Below, piece by piece: positions 52,806-57,496 of a DNA stretch of 64,000 bases. The notes below the pieces were generated by a model that saw nothing but the letters and a program-made list of their open reading frames with translations, was not told where the DNA came from and searched no databases. A program made the translations under genes and the position numbers. The stretch's first letter is position 1. Each line of letters starts with the position of its first letter. This DNA comes from Paenibacillus sp. UNC451MF (GTDB taxonomy: Bacteria; Bacillota; Bacilli; Paenibacillales; NBRC-103111): contig NZ_JMLS01000001.1 of the NCBI RefSeq assembly GCF_000686845.1, positions 62,001-126,000 on the forward strand, read 5' to 3'.

Positions 52806-53071
52806 GCACGCATGGAACCGGTGATGTAGCATAGCATGCCAGAAAACCGCTCGACCCTCGGATCATCATCTAGCGGTTGGATAACGTGCTTCGGTTGAAG
52901 CTGTGAAACCTTGCACATACATTTCCATGTAATAGAGAATGGAGAGTCTTGCACCAGTAAACAATACATCTTATTATAAACCTCAGAATGGGGACGAGCA
53001 ATACATAGTTCGACAAAAGGACATTGGAGGCCGGGAGGATCAATTTTTAAAGCCCTCTTGGATGGAAGTCC

Positions 53072-53100
53072 TTGAGCAGAATCCTTATAAGGAGTATACT
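53072..53100 (+). promoter_or_regulatory. Promoter of the A-type Fe-S carrier gene
   Basis: TTGAGC (53072-53077), a 17-base spacer and TATACT (53095-53100). The leader is about 75 bases. Confidence 0.65.
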
Positions 53101-53182
53101 GTAGTAGAAGTAGCTTTATGAAAAAACGATGGTTCAAATAAGCTGACTTAAGCTAACTTATAAAAGCAAGGAGGAAATGAAC

Positions 53183-53554
53183 ATGATTAAAATTAGCGAT
53201 ACAGCATGCGATAAAGTTAAAGAGTTATTGGAGAACGAGGGTACGCCGAACTTGTTTTTGCGTCTTGGCGTGAAGGCTGGGGGCTGCAGCGGCTTCTCCT
53301 ACGGAATGGGCTTTGATGATCAGGAGCAGGAAGGCGACAAAAGCTTTGAAATCAACGGCTTGAAAGTCGTTGTTGACGCCGACAGCTCCAAATATTTATA
53401 TGGCGTAGAGATTGACTTCAAGGAATCCGGTATGGGCGGCGGCTTCACCATCGATAACCCTAACGCGGTAGCAAGCTGCGGCTGCGGTTCTTCCTTTAAA
53501 GTGAAGGACGAAGAGGGCGCTCCGGAGAAATGCGACGATAAGGTAGAAGCTTAA
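53183..53554 (+). CDS. A-type iron-sulfur carrier (HesB/IscA/ErpA family)
   Basis: A 123-residue Fe-S carrier that hands clusters to target enzymes. The three ligands are Cys35 (GGCSGF), Cys99 and Cys101 (SCGCGSSF), the standard C-x63-C-x-C spacing. An acidic tail of about 15 residues with one extra Cys is not typical. It resembles Bacillus YutM. AAGGAGG stands 8 bases before the ATG at 53183. With Nfu it forms the window's cluster-delivery set; MqnE is a possible client. Confidence 0.9.
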   Translation: MIKISDTACDKVKELLENEGTPNLFLRLGVKAGGCSGFSYGMGFDDQEQEGDKSFEINGLKVVVDADSSKYLYGVEIDFKESGMGGGFTIDNPNAVASCGCGSSFKVKDEEGAPEKCDDKVEA

Positions 53555-53586
53555 TAGAGTTTTGGTATTTTAAGCTGTTGGATGAC

Positions 53587-53626
53587 AGCCTCCTCTACGG
53601 ATCTGCCGAAGAGGAGGCTTTTTATT
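53587..53626 (+). terminator. Intrinsic terminator after Fe-S carrier gene
   Basis: AGCCTCCTCT and AGAGGAGGCT are perfect 10-bp complements followed by TTTTATTTTT. Confidence 0.92.
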
Positions 53627-53683
53627 TTTCTATCGAATAAACATCGACGGGTGAAAGGGCTGGAAAGGACTTTACGTTAACAT

Positions 53684-53712
53684 TTGCTTTTATACTTGGT
53701 TAACTCTATAAT
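53684..53712 (+). promoter_or_regulatory. Promoter of the YolD-like gene
   Basis: TTGCTT (53684-53689), 17 bases, then a perfect TATAAT (53707-53712). The start point would fall inside the LexA box just downstream. Confidence 0.7.
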
Positions 53713-53715
53713 AAT

Positions 53716-53729
53716 AGAACAAATGTTCT
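53716..53729. promoter_or_regulatory. LexA (SOS) box
   Basis: AGAACAAATGTTCT contains GAAC-AAAT-GTTC, matching the Gram-positive SOS consensus CGAACRNRYGTTCG at all positions except the outermost. It sits 4 bases after the -10 box, ideal for repression. Confidence 0.8.
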
Positions 53730-53746
53730 TATTTAGAGGTGAGGTA

Positions 53747-54088
53747 ATGAAAGCAAACAACCAATTTCTCAAACTCGATGACCCTACATACATAAATAAA
53801 CAGCAGTATAAAAGAAAACGTCCCGAGAAAGATGAACGGGCACTGGAATCGCTCATACGAACTTTAGCGGTAGCTATTTTTACCGAGAGGCAAAATGTAG
53901 TGACTGTCTGGAGTGAATACGAAGACCAGACGTTTCGAGGCAAAATAACCGAGTTGGACAAGGTGCATAGAACGATCCGAATCGAGAATGAGGAAGAGTA
54001 CACCTGGATTCAATTTGACGATGTCATTGATATTGAGATTATTACAAGCGACTTAACGGCTGAAGGAGCATACCCCTTCGGAGTATAA
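53747..54088 (+). CDS. YolD-like family protein
   Basis: A 113-residue protein of the YolD-like family. The diagnostic C-terminal part reads FRGKITELDKVHRTIRIENEEE...IQFDDVIDIEI. The N-terminal 35 residues are basic. In Bacillus such proteins are encoded beside Y-family DNA polymerases (UvrX/YqjW) and are SOS-induced; their role in translesion synthesis is unresolved. Here the polymerase gene is not adjacent. GAGGTGAG precedes the ATG at 53747, and the LexA box predicts damage induction. Confidence 0.8.
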   Translation: MKANNQFLKLDDPTYINKQQYKRKRPEKDERALESLIRTLAVAIFTERQNVVTVWSEYEDQTFRGKITELDKVHRTIRIENEEEYTWIQFDDVIDIEIITSDLTAEGAYPFGV

Positions 54089-54131
54089 TGGCAATATTTC
54101 GAGTTGCTTCATTGGTTTCTCGGCATTCTGT

Positions 54132-54156
54132 GAACCTCATCATGAGGTTCTTTTTC
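54132..54156 (+). terminator. Intrinsic terminator after YolD-like gene
   Basis: GAACCTCAT and ATGAGGTTC are perfect 9-bp complements around one base, followed by TTTTT. Confidence 0.9.
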
Positions 54157-54167
54157 GTAGGATCAAC

Positions 54168-54241
54168 ATTTCCCGATAACAAAAGCGGCTGAAGCCTGCG
54201 TAAGGCGTCGTTTTTTCTCTTTTGTAAGAAGTTCTCGTCAA
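54168..54241 (+). repeat. Dispersed intergenic repeat, copy B
   Basis: ATTTCCCGATAACAAAAGCG and its continuation (54168-54189) plus GAAGTTCTCGTCAA (54228-54241) repeat blocks found at 27190-27264 with the same order and spacing. This copy lacks the long left arm and so cannot form the large hairpin. Confidence 0.7.
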
Positions 54242-54381
54242 GCTTTGGAGCATTCCAGAAAACAATACAAAATTTTTACTTTTTGACTTCAAATTTCGAG
54301 TACCTTTTTACTTCAGATACTTTATAATCCAACGTATCAGCCATAATACGATGAAAATTCATCAGGAATAGGGAGATGCGG

Positions 54382-54672
54382 ATGACCTTTATCAATCACA
54401 TTAATTTAGCCAATACAAATGGGAATGTCTATTGCTGCCTGCGCAATAAGGTTGTGAGATTGAATGAATCTCAAATTACGGACTATTGCAGCGGCTGCAA
54501 GATGAATAGAGGGGCAGAACAAGGAAAGAGCGTTCAATGTTACTGGAACGACGTTCGGGATATCGCTAATCCGCACATTGTTGTTGACCCACAACTGGAG
54601 TTTCTTAGTATGCAAAATAGAAAGCTTAAGATAGAGCTTCCTTGGGGTCATGCCGGAAATGCGCTTGCATAA
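54382..54672 (+). CDS. Hypothetical cysteine-containing protein
   Basis: A 96-residue protein that I do not recognise. Cysteines occur as YCC near residue 18, YCSGCKM near 36-39 and VQCYW near 52, a spacing that could bind zinc. The C-terminus reads LKIELPWGHAGNALA. GGGAG stands 6 bases before the ATG at 54382. A TATAAT at 54323-54328 and a strong terminator behind support a real monocistronic gene. Confidence 0.65.
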   Translation: MTFINHINLANTNGNVYCCLRNKVVRLNESQITDYCSGCKMNRGAEQGKSVQCYWNDVRDIANPHIVVDPQLEFLSMQNRKLKIELPWGHAGNALA

Positions 54673-54689
54673 CAAATATGCAGCAAAAA

Positions 54690-54724
54690 AGGCAGTCTTT
54701 CTGATAAGGAAAGACTGCTTTTTC
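54690..54724 (+). terminator. Intrinsic terminator before the sda region
   Basis: GCAGTCTTTC and GAAAGACTGC are perfect 10-bp complements around TGATAAG, followed by TTTTT. Confidence 0.92.
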
Positions 54725-54758
54725 CATTTTTTGAATTAATTTTTTTTATCAGTGTGAG

Positions 54759-54868
54759 GGTGGATAACCTGTGAATAACCTTGTCCACACTATTCACCCC
54801 ATAATCATACAGGATTTTACACTTATTAACAGTGTACGCACAGGTTATACACAAAAAGCTGTGGATAT
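54759..54868. promoter_or_regulatory. DnaA-box cluster upstream of sda
   Basis: Against TTATNCACA or its complement: TTATACACA (54845-54853) matches fully. GGTGGATAA (54759), TGTGAATAA (54770), TTGTCCACA (54781), TTATTAACA (54823) and TGTGGATAT (54860) each differ at one base. Six boxes in 110 bp, on both strands, is far above chance. Confidence 0.75.
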
Positions 54869-54870
54869 TA

Positions 54871-54882
54871 GAACGCTTGTTC
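54871..54882. promoter_or_regulatory. LexA-like box in the sda promoter
   Basis: GAAC-GCTT-GTTC keeps both conserved half sites of the SOS box with one departure from the RNRY centre. It lies over the position of the -35 of the TATAAT at 54903-54908. Confidence 0.55.
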
Positions 54883-54902
54883 TATTTTTCTGGGCATGAT
54901 AC

Positions 54903-54908
54903 TATAAT
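54903..54908 (+). promoter_or_regulatory. -10 box of sda
   Basis: A perfect TATAAT 29 bases before the sda start codon. The -35 region is poor and overlaps the LexA-like box. Confidence 0.55.
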
Positions 54909-54936
54909 TTTACTTTAACGAAGTTAGGTGATCTAA

Positions 54937-55089
54937 ATGAGATTGATGAGCAATGAGATTTTAATCGATTCGTACTTCAAGGCACTGAACTTGCAGCTAG
55001 AACAGGAGTTTGTCGAATTGTTGTTGGAAGAGATCAGACGTCGTCAGCTTAATTTGGAATACTTTCATAGAGAAGCTCAGGTCAATTGA
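54937..55089 (+). CDS. sda: Sporulation histidine kinase inhibitor Sda
   Basis: A 50-residue protein that matches Sda through MSNEILIDSYFKALNLQLEQ and the second helix EFVELLLEEIRRRQL, an antiparallel helical hairpin. In Bacillus Sda binds the dimerisation domain of KinA and blocks autophosphorylation, delaying sporulation while replication is active or DNA is damaged. AGGTGAT lies 5 bases before the ATG. Six DnaA boxes and a LexA-like box precede it, consistent with replication-linked control. The terminator overlaps the stop codon. Confidence 0.85.
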   Translation: MRLMSNEILIDSYFKALNLQLEQEFVELLLEEIRRRQLNLEYFHREAQVN

Positions 55090-55106
55090 CCTGGCTCTTT
55101 TTTTTG
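55072..55106 (+). terminator. Intrinsic terminator of sda
   Basis: CAGGTCAATTGACCTG is a perfect palindrome, followed by GCTC and eight T residues. It overlaps the last codons of sda. Confidence 0.85.
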
Positions 55107-55126
55107 TCGAGTTAGGGCGATCCATC

Positions 55127-56116
55127 TCACTTCGAATCGGAAGATGAGGTGATATTTCTCAGCTCCTCGAAGGCCTCCCTGTCCAACACCACGTCGCCGG
55201 CTGCGCAGGAGTCGTCAAGCTGGTCAGCGGTTTTACAGCCGGATATCGGGAATACCGGGAAAGGATGAGCAAGCATATACCCAAGAGCTACTTGAGACAT
55301 TGTCAGATGAAGCCGCTCCGCAATGCTCTTAACCGACATCAATTTACGAAGGTTGTCTTCGTTGCACAGCTTCCATACTTTTTTATTCTCCGCGGTTGGC
55401 TCCTGCAGCATTTCAATAGTATAGCGCCCACTGAAAAAGCCGTTTGCCTGAGCATTGTAAGGGATAGCAGGCAATCCTGTACGTTCATGATATGCCAGCT
55501 CCTTATCGTCCATGGTCACCATTGTAGGATCATTACCTGGCCGATAGGAGGCCAAACTCCATTTGGTTTGGCTCGCTGCAAAGCCCTGCAAGCCGTTGGC
55601 CCTGGCATACTGCTGAGCGGCTTCTATTCGTTCCGAGCGCCAATTGGAGCATCCGAAGTACCGGATTTTTCCCTGACGGACATATTCATTCAACACATTG
55701 ATAATTTCATCAACTGGTTGCTGAGGATCATCCCTGTGCAGCCAATACAGATCAATATAATCCGTTTGCAAATTCTGTAAGCTCTGCTCAAGATCGTAAG
55801 CGATATCCTCCTTGAACAAACGAGCGATATGCATGGTATCTAAATCAGGGTGAGCCCCTTTAGTAGCTAGGATGATGCGACTTCGGTTATTTCGCTGTTT
55901 CATCCACTGGCCAATGACTTTCTCGCTTCGGCTTCGCTCTCCGGGCACCCAATCACTATAAACCTTGGCTGTGTCCAGAAAATTGCCTCCATACTCCAAA
56001 AAACGGTCCATAAGCGCATAAGAATCCTGATGATTAATCGTCTCGCCGAAACTGGACGTGCCTAAGCAAATGACAGAAGGCGACAATTCCGTATCGGGAA
56101 TGTTTCTAGTTTTCAT
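55127..56116 (-). CDS. Aldo/keto reductase
   Basis: A 329-residue NADPH-dependent reductase with the (beta/alpha)8 fold. The catalytic tetrad is visible: Asp48 and Tyr53 (LDTAKVYSDW), Lys86 (LATKGA) and His127 (YWLHRDD). It resembles bacterial AKRs encoded beside sugar or inositol dehydrogenases; the substrate is unknown. GGGAGGTT stands 6 bases before the ATG at 56116. It is divergent from the Gfo/Idh/MocA gene and shares a promoter region with paired repeats. Confidence 0.88.
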   Translation of the reverse strand: MKTRNIPDTELSPSVICLGTSSFGETINHQDSYALMDRFLEYGGNFLDTAKVYSDWVPGERSRSEKVIGQWMKQRNNRSRIILATKGAHPDLDTMHIARLFKEDIAYDLEQSLQNLQTDYIDLYWLHRDDPQQPVDEIINVLNEYVRQGKIRYFGCSNWRSERIEAAQQYARANGLQGFAASQTKWSLASYRPGNDPTMVTMDDKELAYHERTGLPAIPYNAQANGFFSGRYTIEMLQEPTAENKKVWKLCNEDNLRKLMSVKSIAERLHLTMSQVALGYMLAHPFPVFPISGCKTADQLDDSCAAGDVVLDREAFEELRNITSSSDSK

Positions 56117-56162
56117 TGATATGAACCTCCCATGCAGCATTTTTTTCTAGTCTATTAAACTG

Positions 56163-56278
56163 TAGGATACTACCCGTAATTATAAGGAAACCTAGTCGCT
56201 ATTGTAAGCAGTTACATTTAGTTGTATTAGTATACATAGAGTAAGGAGCTACTTAACTAAACGAAACTAAGTATCCTA
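56163..56278. promoter_or_regulatory. Paired inverted elements in a divergent promoter region
   Basis: TAGGATACT (56163-56171) and its exact complement AGTATCCTA (56270-56278) flank the space between the AKR and Gfo/Idh/MocA promoters. They could be two sites of one regulator, for which no gene is adjacent. Confidence 0.35.
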
Positions 56279-56289
56279 ATGGTCAGTCA

Positions 56290-56318
56290 TTTTCACCCTG
56301 TGGAATGTGGCTTATAAT
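56290..56318 (+). promoter_or_regulatory. Promoter of the Gfo/Idh/MocA gene
   Basis: TTTTCA (56290-56295), 17 bases, and a perfect TATAAT (56313-56318). Confidence 0.6.
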
Positions 56319-56383
56319 GGGACGAGATATCAAAAATGCAGTATGAATTAGATGCGTTGTCATTTATTGAAGGAGGACATGAT

Positions 56384-57496
56384 ATGAAACCAATCAGATT
56401 AGGGATGGTAGGGAGCGGGGATATTAGCAACCGCTTTTTCGAACAAACGGCTCGGTTGGAACAGGTCTCTTTCGTAGCAACCTGCGCAAAGCATTTAGAC
56501 AATGCCGAGAAAAAAGCCAAGAAGTACGATGTGGCTCGTTGGTATGACGATTATATTCAAATGATGGATAGTGAGGAGCTGGATGCGGTTGTCGTCACGA
56601 CTCCACACTCTATACATGCGGAAGTTGTCTTGGCAGCGCTGGAAAGAGGTCTTCATGTCCTGAATGAGAAGCCGATGGCGACTAGCTTTGAGGATTGCAA
56701 GAAAATGGTCGAGCTGGCCGAGACAAACAATAAAATATTGATGAATTTACCTTATGACCTTAATCCAAGCTTCATTTCGGCCATTCCGTATGTGAGCGAA
56801 GCGGTAATAGGTAAAATTACGGGAGCGGAAGCTCAGCTTAACATACCCGGACCAGGCCGAGATAACTGGTACTATAAGAAAGAGATTTCCCATGGTGGAG
56901 CCATTCTCGATTGCATGGTGTATCCCGTAAGTCGGCTGATCTCCATGCTCGGACCGGCGATAAGCGTCATGGCTGAAGTAAATACGATTATTCCTAACCG
57001 AATAGTTAACGGCGGCAAGCCTATTCAAAGTGATGTAGATGATAACGCTACGGTCATTCTGACGTTCGCCTCGGGCCAACATGCTACTATTCGGACGCTG
57101 TGGGGTACCTCTTTCAAGCAAAATAATACATTGATTTACGGCCGCAAAGGTACGGTAGCGATCAACGATGGCGGATTTCCGCTCGTAATTCACTCTCCCC
57201 AAGCACCGATTGAGGGTGCAGAACCAGTTACATGGCGTGGCTATTCGGACTGCTATGCACCGAAGCTGCTGCCATCGCTTAGCTCGGAACAGGACATTAT
57301 GAGCCATTTTGTTCACAGTCTCCGTACAGGGGAACAGCCAAAGCCTTCAGGGCGACTTCAGCTTCACGTGCATGAAATATTGTTCGCCGCTTATCGCTCG
57401 GCCGAAACAGGACAGCGCTGTTTGCTAACGACCACTTTTGAGCCTTGGAATAAGCTGGATCAGGGTATCTTTGATACCAAGAGTGATTTTATATAA
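56384..57496 (+). CDS. Gfo/Idh/MocA-family oxidoreductase
   Basis: A 370-residue NAD(P)-dependent sugar dehydrogenase family protein. The Rossmann motif GMVGSGDISNRF (about 7-18) and the conserved EKPMA (near 95) that positions the nicotinamide are present. The C-terminal alpha/beta domain follows. Members oxidise inositols, sugars or sugar acids; the substrate is unknown. GAAGGAGG lies 7 bases before the ATG at 56384. A Dabb-type gene follows after 16 bases in the same transcript. Confidence 0.88.
   Translation: MKPIRLGMVGSGDISNRFFEQTARLEQVSFVATCAKHLDNAEKKAKKYDVARWYDDYIQMMDSEELDAVVVTTPHSIHAEVVLAALERGLHVLNEKPMATSFEDCKKMVELAETNNKILMNLPYDLNPSFISAIPYVSEAVIGKITGAEAQLNIPGPGRDNWYYKKEISHGGAILDCMVYPVSRLISMLGPAISVMAEVNTIIPNRIVNGGKPIQSDVDDNATVILTFASGQHATIRTLWGTSFKQNNTLIYGRKGTVAINDGGFPLVIHSPQAPIEGAEPVTWRGYSDCYAPKLLPSLSSEQDIMSHFVHSLRTGEQPKPSGRLQLHVHEILFAAYRSAETGQRCLLTTTFEPWNKLDQGIFDTKSDFI

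Follow-up and report, generated by a model that had tools for sequence, protein, structure and literature searches.

An sda checkpoint promoter in Paenibacillus carries the DnaA-box array and LexA-type palindrome found widely across sampled Bacilli

Why should a small sporulation-checkpoint gene of Paenibacillus lie behind a dense row of DnaA boxes that ends in a LexA-like palindrome? The locus lies in the window (the whole 64,000-nucleotide stretch of DNA analysed here), part of a 7.49-Mb draft genome. Our answer, which we consider well founded, is that the locus is the Paenibacillus version of a common Bacilli sda checkpoint promoter, probably activated by DnaA and repressed by LexA. What is observed is the anatomy of the locus, how far it exceeds chance and how it is conserved.

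The gene (sda, 54937-55089, plus strand) encodes, in 50 codons, a phosphorelay checkpoint protein. By profile match it belongs to PF08970 (E 5e-13; 49 bits, above the curated cut-off of 22.6), and phmmer aligns it with the solved Sda 1pv0 (E 3.2e-8). Among the named genomes compared, only Paenibacillus sp. RC67 has an identical Sda. A strong intrinsic terminator of the upstream unit (54687-54723, plus strand, from a terminator scan; the fold of 54685-54730 has -21.4 kcal/mol and z -5.9) separates that unit from the box array, and a second one, supported by scan and fold, overlaps the end of sda (55077-55105, plus strand). Because the preceding unit and sda are each closed by a terminator, sda looks monocistronic, with its own insulated promoter. 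Searching 53000-57000 against Rfam gave no RNA element at the gathering threshold, and NCBIfam had no match for Sda, for a YolD-like protein or for a 98-aa protein encoded upstream. As far as the flanks of the 27 named loci extend (see below), the neighbouring genes are not conserved alongside sda: the YolD-like gene occurs at 2/27, the 98-aa gene at 4/27 and an aldo-keto reductase gene at 2/27. The 98-aa protein (54376-54672) likewise has no Pfam match; relatives of it are found at loci L032, L033, L044 and L045.

We counted as a DnaA box any site within one mismatch of TTATNCACA, the consensus used in PMC4447404 (papers are cited here by PMC accession, from excerpts of their text). Six such boxes fall within the 110 bp from 54759 to 54868. 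A sequence-only reading of the locus had described one as perfect and five as carrying one mismatch; the number stands, but the split is two and four. That reading had also placed a 50-codon Sda gene behind the boxes and GAAC-N4-GTTC over the -35 region, and both placements are borne out by the profile match above and the coordinates below. Numbering by distance to the GAAC of the palindrome, the array begins off the main conserved grid with TTATCCACC (54759-54767, minus strand), the weakest of the six; at L032, L041 and L131 a box lies at, or at most 1 bp from, the equivalent place. The grid proper starts at minus 101 with a perfect box, TTATTCACA (54770-54778, minus), followed by the one-mismatch box TTGTCCACA (54781-54789, plus) at minus 90 and, at minus 81/82, by a degenerate box with two mismatches, CTATTCACC (54790-54798, plus), a position held by a one-mismatch box in some relatives (L022, L033, L044). 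Next come the one-mismatch box TTATTAACA (54823-54831, plus) at minus 48, a second degenerate box, GTACGCACA (54834-54842, plus; two mismatches), at minus 37, where L037 has a perfect box, and the perfect box TTATACACA (54845-54853, plus) at minus 26. The promoter-proximal box, ATATCCACA (54860-54868, minus; one mismatch), sits at minus 11.

Such a dense array exceeds chance. The window holds 46 boxes within one mismatch, and the sda array is the only place with six in 110 bp; when the whole window was dinucleotide-shuffled 200 times, no 110-bp cluster was bigger than four. Local shuffling of the 209-bp region never gave six boxes in 5000 trials (maximum five), which puts the cluster far above a shuffled background. 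We also built a DnaA matrix from 19 of the 21 boxes at the presumed oriC of the host, on both sides of dnaA; the 19 come from two stretches taken as the intergenic parts of oriC. Five of the six sda boxes score above the weakest of these oriC boxes, a level exceeded at 27 places in the whole window, while the box at 54759 scores below it. The proximal box ATATCCACA is the sequence of five of the 19 presumed-oriC boxes. TTATTAACA and TTGTCCACA are absent from the 19, but TTATCAACA and TTGTTCACA are present, with the same mismatch and only the free base different.

Separated by one base from the last DnaA box lies AGAACGCTTGTTCT (54870-54883), a putative LexA-type operator on the evidence of lexA-promoter matrices and conservation. 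Its GAAC-N4-GTTC core (54871-54882) covers elements of the sda promoter: the -35 element TTGTTC (54877-54882, plus strand; placed by an alignment anchored on its TTG) falls within the right half of the palindrome, and an extended -10, TG-N-TACTAT (54897-54905, plus), follows after a 17-bp spacer. A conserved column predicts the transcription start at an A (54912, plus strand), which is the base at that column in 102/113 distinct promoters anchored on the palindrome, and AGGTGA (54926-54931, plus) is a likely ribosome-binding site from its sequence. A generic promoter scan did not call the sda promoter, the TTGTTC/TACTAT pair falling below its limit.

Is this layout peculiar to one genome? We compared 161 upstream regions of Sda-family genes from 119 Bacilli genomes (33 GTDB families, 72 genera), together with 27 named loci, some of them from genomes already in the larger set. 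The 161 comprise 91 of the 102 matches listed (the 11 omitted all belong to other families of the order) and 70 from a longer list; they were picked by hand before their promoters were seen, so that the fractions hold for this set rather than for all Bacilli, and the counts treat loci as independent, uncorrected for sequence relatedness. At least four boxes within 280 bp were found in 99/161 upstream regions, and 84 of these 99 arrays, in 47 genera and 22 families, are combined with an exact GAAC-N4-GTTC. Boxes and palindrome are both conserved in relatives of the window locus, including 17/17 named Paenibacillus loci. In total the palindrome occurs at 93/161 loci, and at 90 of the 93 the last minus-strand box begins 10-12 bp before the palindrome does; the exceptions are three loci of GTDB family f8 that lack an array. 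Relative to GAAC, the shared grid runs at about -101(-), -90(+), -81(+), -48(+), -37(+), -26(+) and -11(-). Two families, f160 and f179 (for example L185, L199 and L201), have the distal box roughly one helical turn further out, at about 114 bp from GAAC where the shared grid has 101. Between the palindrome and the predicted start codon the loci have anything from 56 to 161 bp, implying that the module keeps its place relative to the promoter rather than to the gene.

The same-genus genomes provide an internal control. All 13 that were searched, including that of the window, have two to five Sda-family genes each, 35 loci in all, and array plus palindrome occur at exactly one locus per genome (13/35); none of the other 22/35 has the palindrome or more than three boxes. 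The other Sda-family gene of the host (L157, G000:C18:137907-138029) has no box at all. We also searched 398 genomes of the phylum for the composite TGTGGATA-N0-4-GAACN4GTTC. It was found in 12, once in each, and by coordinates every match lies directly upstream of an sda match; for the backwards control, two genomes had a single match each.

These results bear on the most durable alternative, that the array is mainly a sink for DnaA, a datA-like cluster that tunes initiation and affects sda only secondarily. In B. subtilis, deletion of six DnaA-box clusters outside oriC causes early initiation, strongly only when all six are gone, as a review reports (PMC5295017), and the yqeG-sda region is seventh in the table of the top 20 regions bound by DnaA in vitro (PMC4447404). 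A sink, however, has no need of a spacing locked to the promoter rather than to the start of the gene, nor would it explain why the composite, in its 12/398 genomes, is found only upstream of sda. We therefore regard a primary sink as unlikely; titration of DnaA by the cluster, which the sequence-only reading had raised, may occur as a secondary effect.

A second alternative concerns the palindrome: its right half could be simply the -35, and its left half due to chance or to some other protein, so that no LexA site would exist. Counting the bare palindrome across the genome does not help the case for LexA, and we dropped genome-wide enrichment as support: the 7.5-Mb genome has 125 occurrences of it and 180 of the backwards control, and for the RNNY form the figures are 43 and 42. 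That the bare palindrome is common speaks for the non-LexA explanation; what gives the sda site its weight is where it lies and how it is conserved. So that the palindrome played no part in the selection, we anchored the array promoters on the TTG of the -35 alone. This was possible for 98 of the 99, L116 being dropped because it has no TTG at the expected distance. In the anchored promoters each of the four defined bases of TG-N-TA is found in 94-95/98, and GAAC lies exactly 6 bp upstream in 84/98, any other offset occurring at most once. Of the 14 anchored promoters that have an array but no GAAC arm, 10 still show TTGTTC, implying that the right half is in part a promoter constraint. A -35 needs no left arm, and yet that arm is held at one exact offset; on this count we rejected a plain -35 with a chance partner. 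Three f8 loci that have no more than two boxes (L012, L025, L173) also keep the arm, as GAACACTTGTTC.

The palindrome moreover matches the motif of lexA promoters. The host genome (G000) encodes LexA (PF01726, E 7.9e-29), and its lexA promoter has a motif of the same type as the sda palindrome. We made LexA matrices from lexA-promoter sites within one mismatch, with 81 hand-picked from 93 and then with all 93; by both, the sda palindrome is third among the window's 63,987 places. It scores 13.8 bits with the 81-site matrix, under the 10% quantile of those sites (14.1), and 14.5 bits with the 93-site matrix, below 76% of the 93 sites. On sequence criteria it thus fits the lexA-promoter motif, but as a middling-to-weak match, which tells somewhat against our explanation. 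LexA control of sda is in addition reported for B. subtilis: LexA represses the gene (PMC11925247, which also describes its activation by DnaA; PMC4689574), and epistasis in biofilm formation places sda downstream of lexA (PMC5445613). Taken together, these observations make the non-LexA explanation quite improbable, and a LexA arm remains the reading that we prefer. The top LexA-matrix match of the window lies elsewhere: AGAACAAATGTTCT (53716-53729; 18.3 bits) precedes the YolD-like gene (53747-54088), ends 17 bp before its ATG and is also present at L032 and L033. Judging from that site, this YolD gene, which precedes sda by about 1.1 kb, is likely to be SOS-controlled.

The array and the palindrome can also occur apart. 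It counts against our explanation that the exact palindrome is missing at 15/99 array loci, among them L183, L184, L208 and L215 of family f158 and L103, L115 and L181 of family f184; the -35 is still TTGTTC in five of these seven f158 and f184 loci. LexA is present in 15/15 genomes with such loci, and in 14/15 the 200 bp that precede the lexA match contain a lexA-type site with at most one mismatch; in G532 those 200 bp gave no such site. Loss of LexA, or a changed LexA motif, was considered as the cause of the missing arm and rejected on these counts. Since LexA remains, the arm was lost from sda or was never present there. The existence both of arrays without the palindrome and of palindromes without the array argues that the two arms are functional and independent, and hence that the DnaA and LexA inputs are separable.

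That DnaA represses rather than activates the promoter, as it appears to do at several other B. subtilis genes, is hard to credit, because the nearest box ends before the -35 without covering it and because DnaA reportedly activates sda in B. subtilis, where mutation of either box 1 or box 2 lowers its expression (PMC4447404).

How, then, might the promoter work? By analogy with the B. subtilis literature, DnaA activation, LexA repression and the action of Sda would operate in Paenibacillus as follows. ATP-DnaA would assemble on the row of boxes with its fixed spacing, and DnaA at the box next to the -35 would aid RNA polymerase at the weak TTGTTC/extended -10 promoter, so that Sda would rise with active initiator. 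LexA on the palindrome would lower sda output by covering the -35; DNA damage, through RecA-driven cleavage of LexA, would release it. Sda would then block the sporulation kinases and the phosphorelay, and replicating or damaged cells would thereby stay out of sporulation. DnaA boxes numbered up to 7 are described at the B. subtilis sda promoter, with direct activation by DnaA, and at 55 nM the ATP form of DnaA recovers about 50-fold more sda DNA than the ADP form does (PMC4447404). B. subtilis Sda is reported to inhibit sporulation kinases (PMC5445613, PMC5295017), and the SOS response lowers sporulation via Sda (PMC10578586). Sitting less easily with this scheme, a 2025 review (PMC12448304) describes the DnaA/sda response of B. 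subtilis as RecA-independent and the effect of DnaA on sda as indirect.

Outside the order of the window the promoter has a further companion. TTCGACA lies 121-134 bp before the palindrome at 31/49 loci from other orders, against 1/26 in the family of the window and 0/18 in the other families of its order; allowing one mismatch, the figures are 37/49, 4/26 and 0/18. In L098, L086 and L113, for example, it is about 128-132 bp away. Inspection of the window sda locus found no TTCGACA at the corresponding place. In its extended form, close to TTTTTCGACAAA, the element looks like the Spo0A box TGTCGAA, as given in PMC5295017, read in reverse. We considered whether it belongs to the promoter of a divergent yqeG. 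By tblastn, 17/32 TTCGACA loci have a divergent yqeG and 15/32 have none within the flank examined, which for seven of the 15 reached only about 650-725 bp upstream. A yqeG promoter is thus not favoured, and the presence of the element with and without yqeG points to sda. If TTCGACA is real, Spo0A may feed back on sda in those lineages.

More tentatively, we suggest as one possible picture, rather short of an even chance, that the sda promoter is an ancient and rigid Bacilli device with replaceable inputs. A fixed-phase DnaA array would act on a deliberately weak -35; a LexA arm would have been grafted onto that -35, and lineages could lose it or retain it by itself; and many Bacilli of other orders than that of Paenibacillus would gain Spo0A feedback from the Spo0A-box-like TTTTTCGACAAA, placed at a fixed distance upstream of the array, making the Paenibacillus form two-input and the Bacillus form three-input. 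Independently of this picture, the comparison extends the checkpoint promoter of B. subtilis to Paenibacillus and to 22 GTDB families in our sample, and its presence in so many families argues that the link from sporulation to replication and DNA damage is old and strongly constrained. The fixed grid offers exact positions for probing how DnaA activates transcription, and lineages lacking one input are natural test cases for the worth of each.

What is new here must be set against what is in print. The sequence-only reading was right that sda is under DnaA control in B. subtilis, where direct activation is reported. Its proposal that replication status and DNA damage merge in one sda promoter is supported by the sequence; the LexA site, which it took for an addition peculiar to this locus, is present in the B. 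subtilis type as well. With LexA and DnaA control of B. subtilis sda both published, combined control is already known; the window locus extends a known promoter type, and its novelty is modest. What the comparison appears to add is the fixed geometry across 22 families, the separable inputs and the Spo0A-box-like element upstream in other Bacilli. We found nothing on topic when searching for Paenibacillus literature on sda, sporulation and DnaA or on LexA and DnaA, and no description of sda promoter geometry across families in the literature within our reach, most subscription journals lying beyond it.

Finally, three known systems place the locus. The nearest is the B. subtilis-type locus (G674); its Sda and 1pv0, which we take to be the B. 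subtilis protein, are identical over 39 residues. This locus shares with the window the box grid, the pattern of orientations, the palindrome over the -35 and the extended -10. Its palindrome, AGAACGATTGTTCT, has the core GATT where the window has GCTT, and B. subtilis-type loci carry a divergent yqeG and TTCGACA upstream of the array, neither of which stands at that place in the window. The LexA operators of Bacilli lexA promoters, like the sda site, are GAAC-N4-GTTY palindromes, but sda has only one such site, whose right half also serves as the -35. The presumed oriC of the same genome has boxes of the same type, including ATATCCACA, in both orientations; unlike the sda array with its six, it gathers 19 boxes around dnaA.
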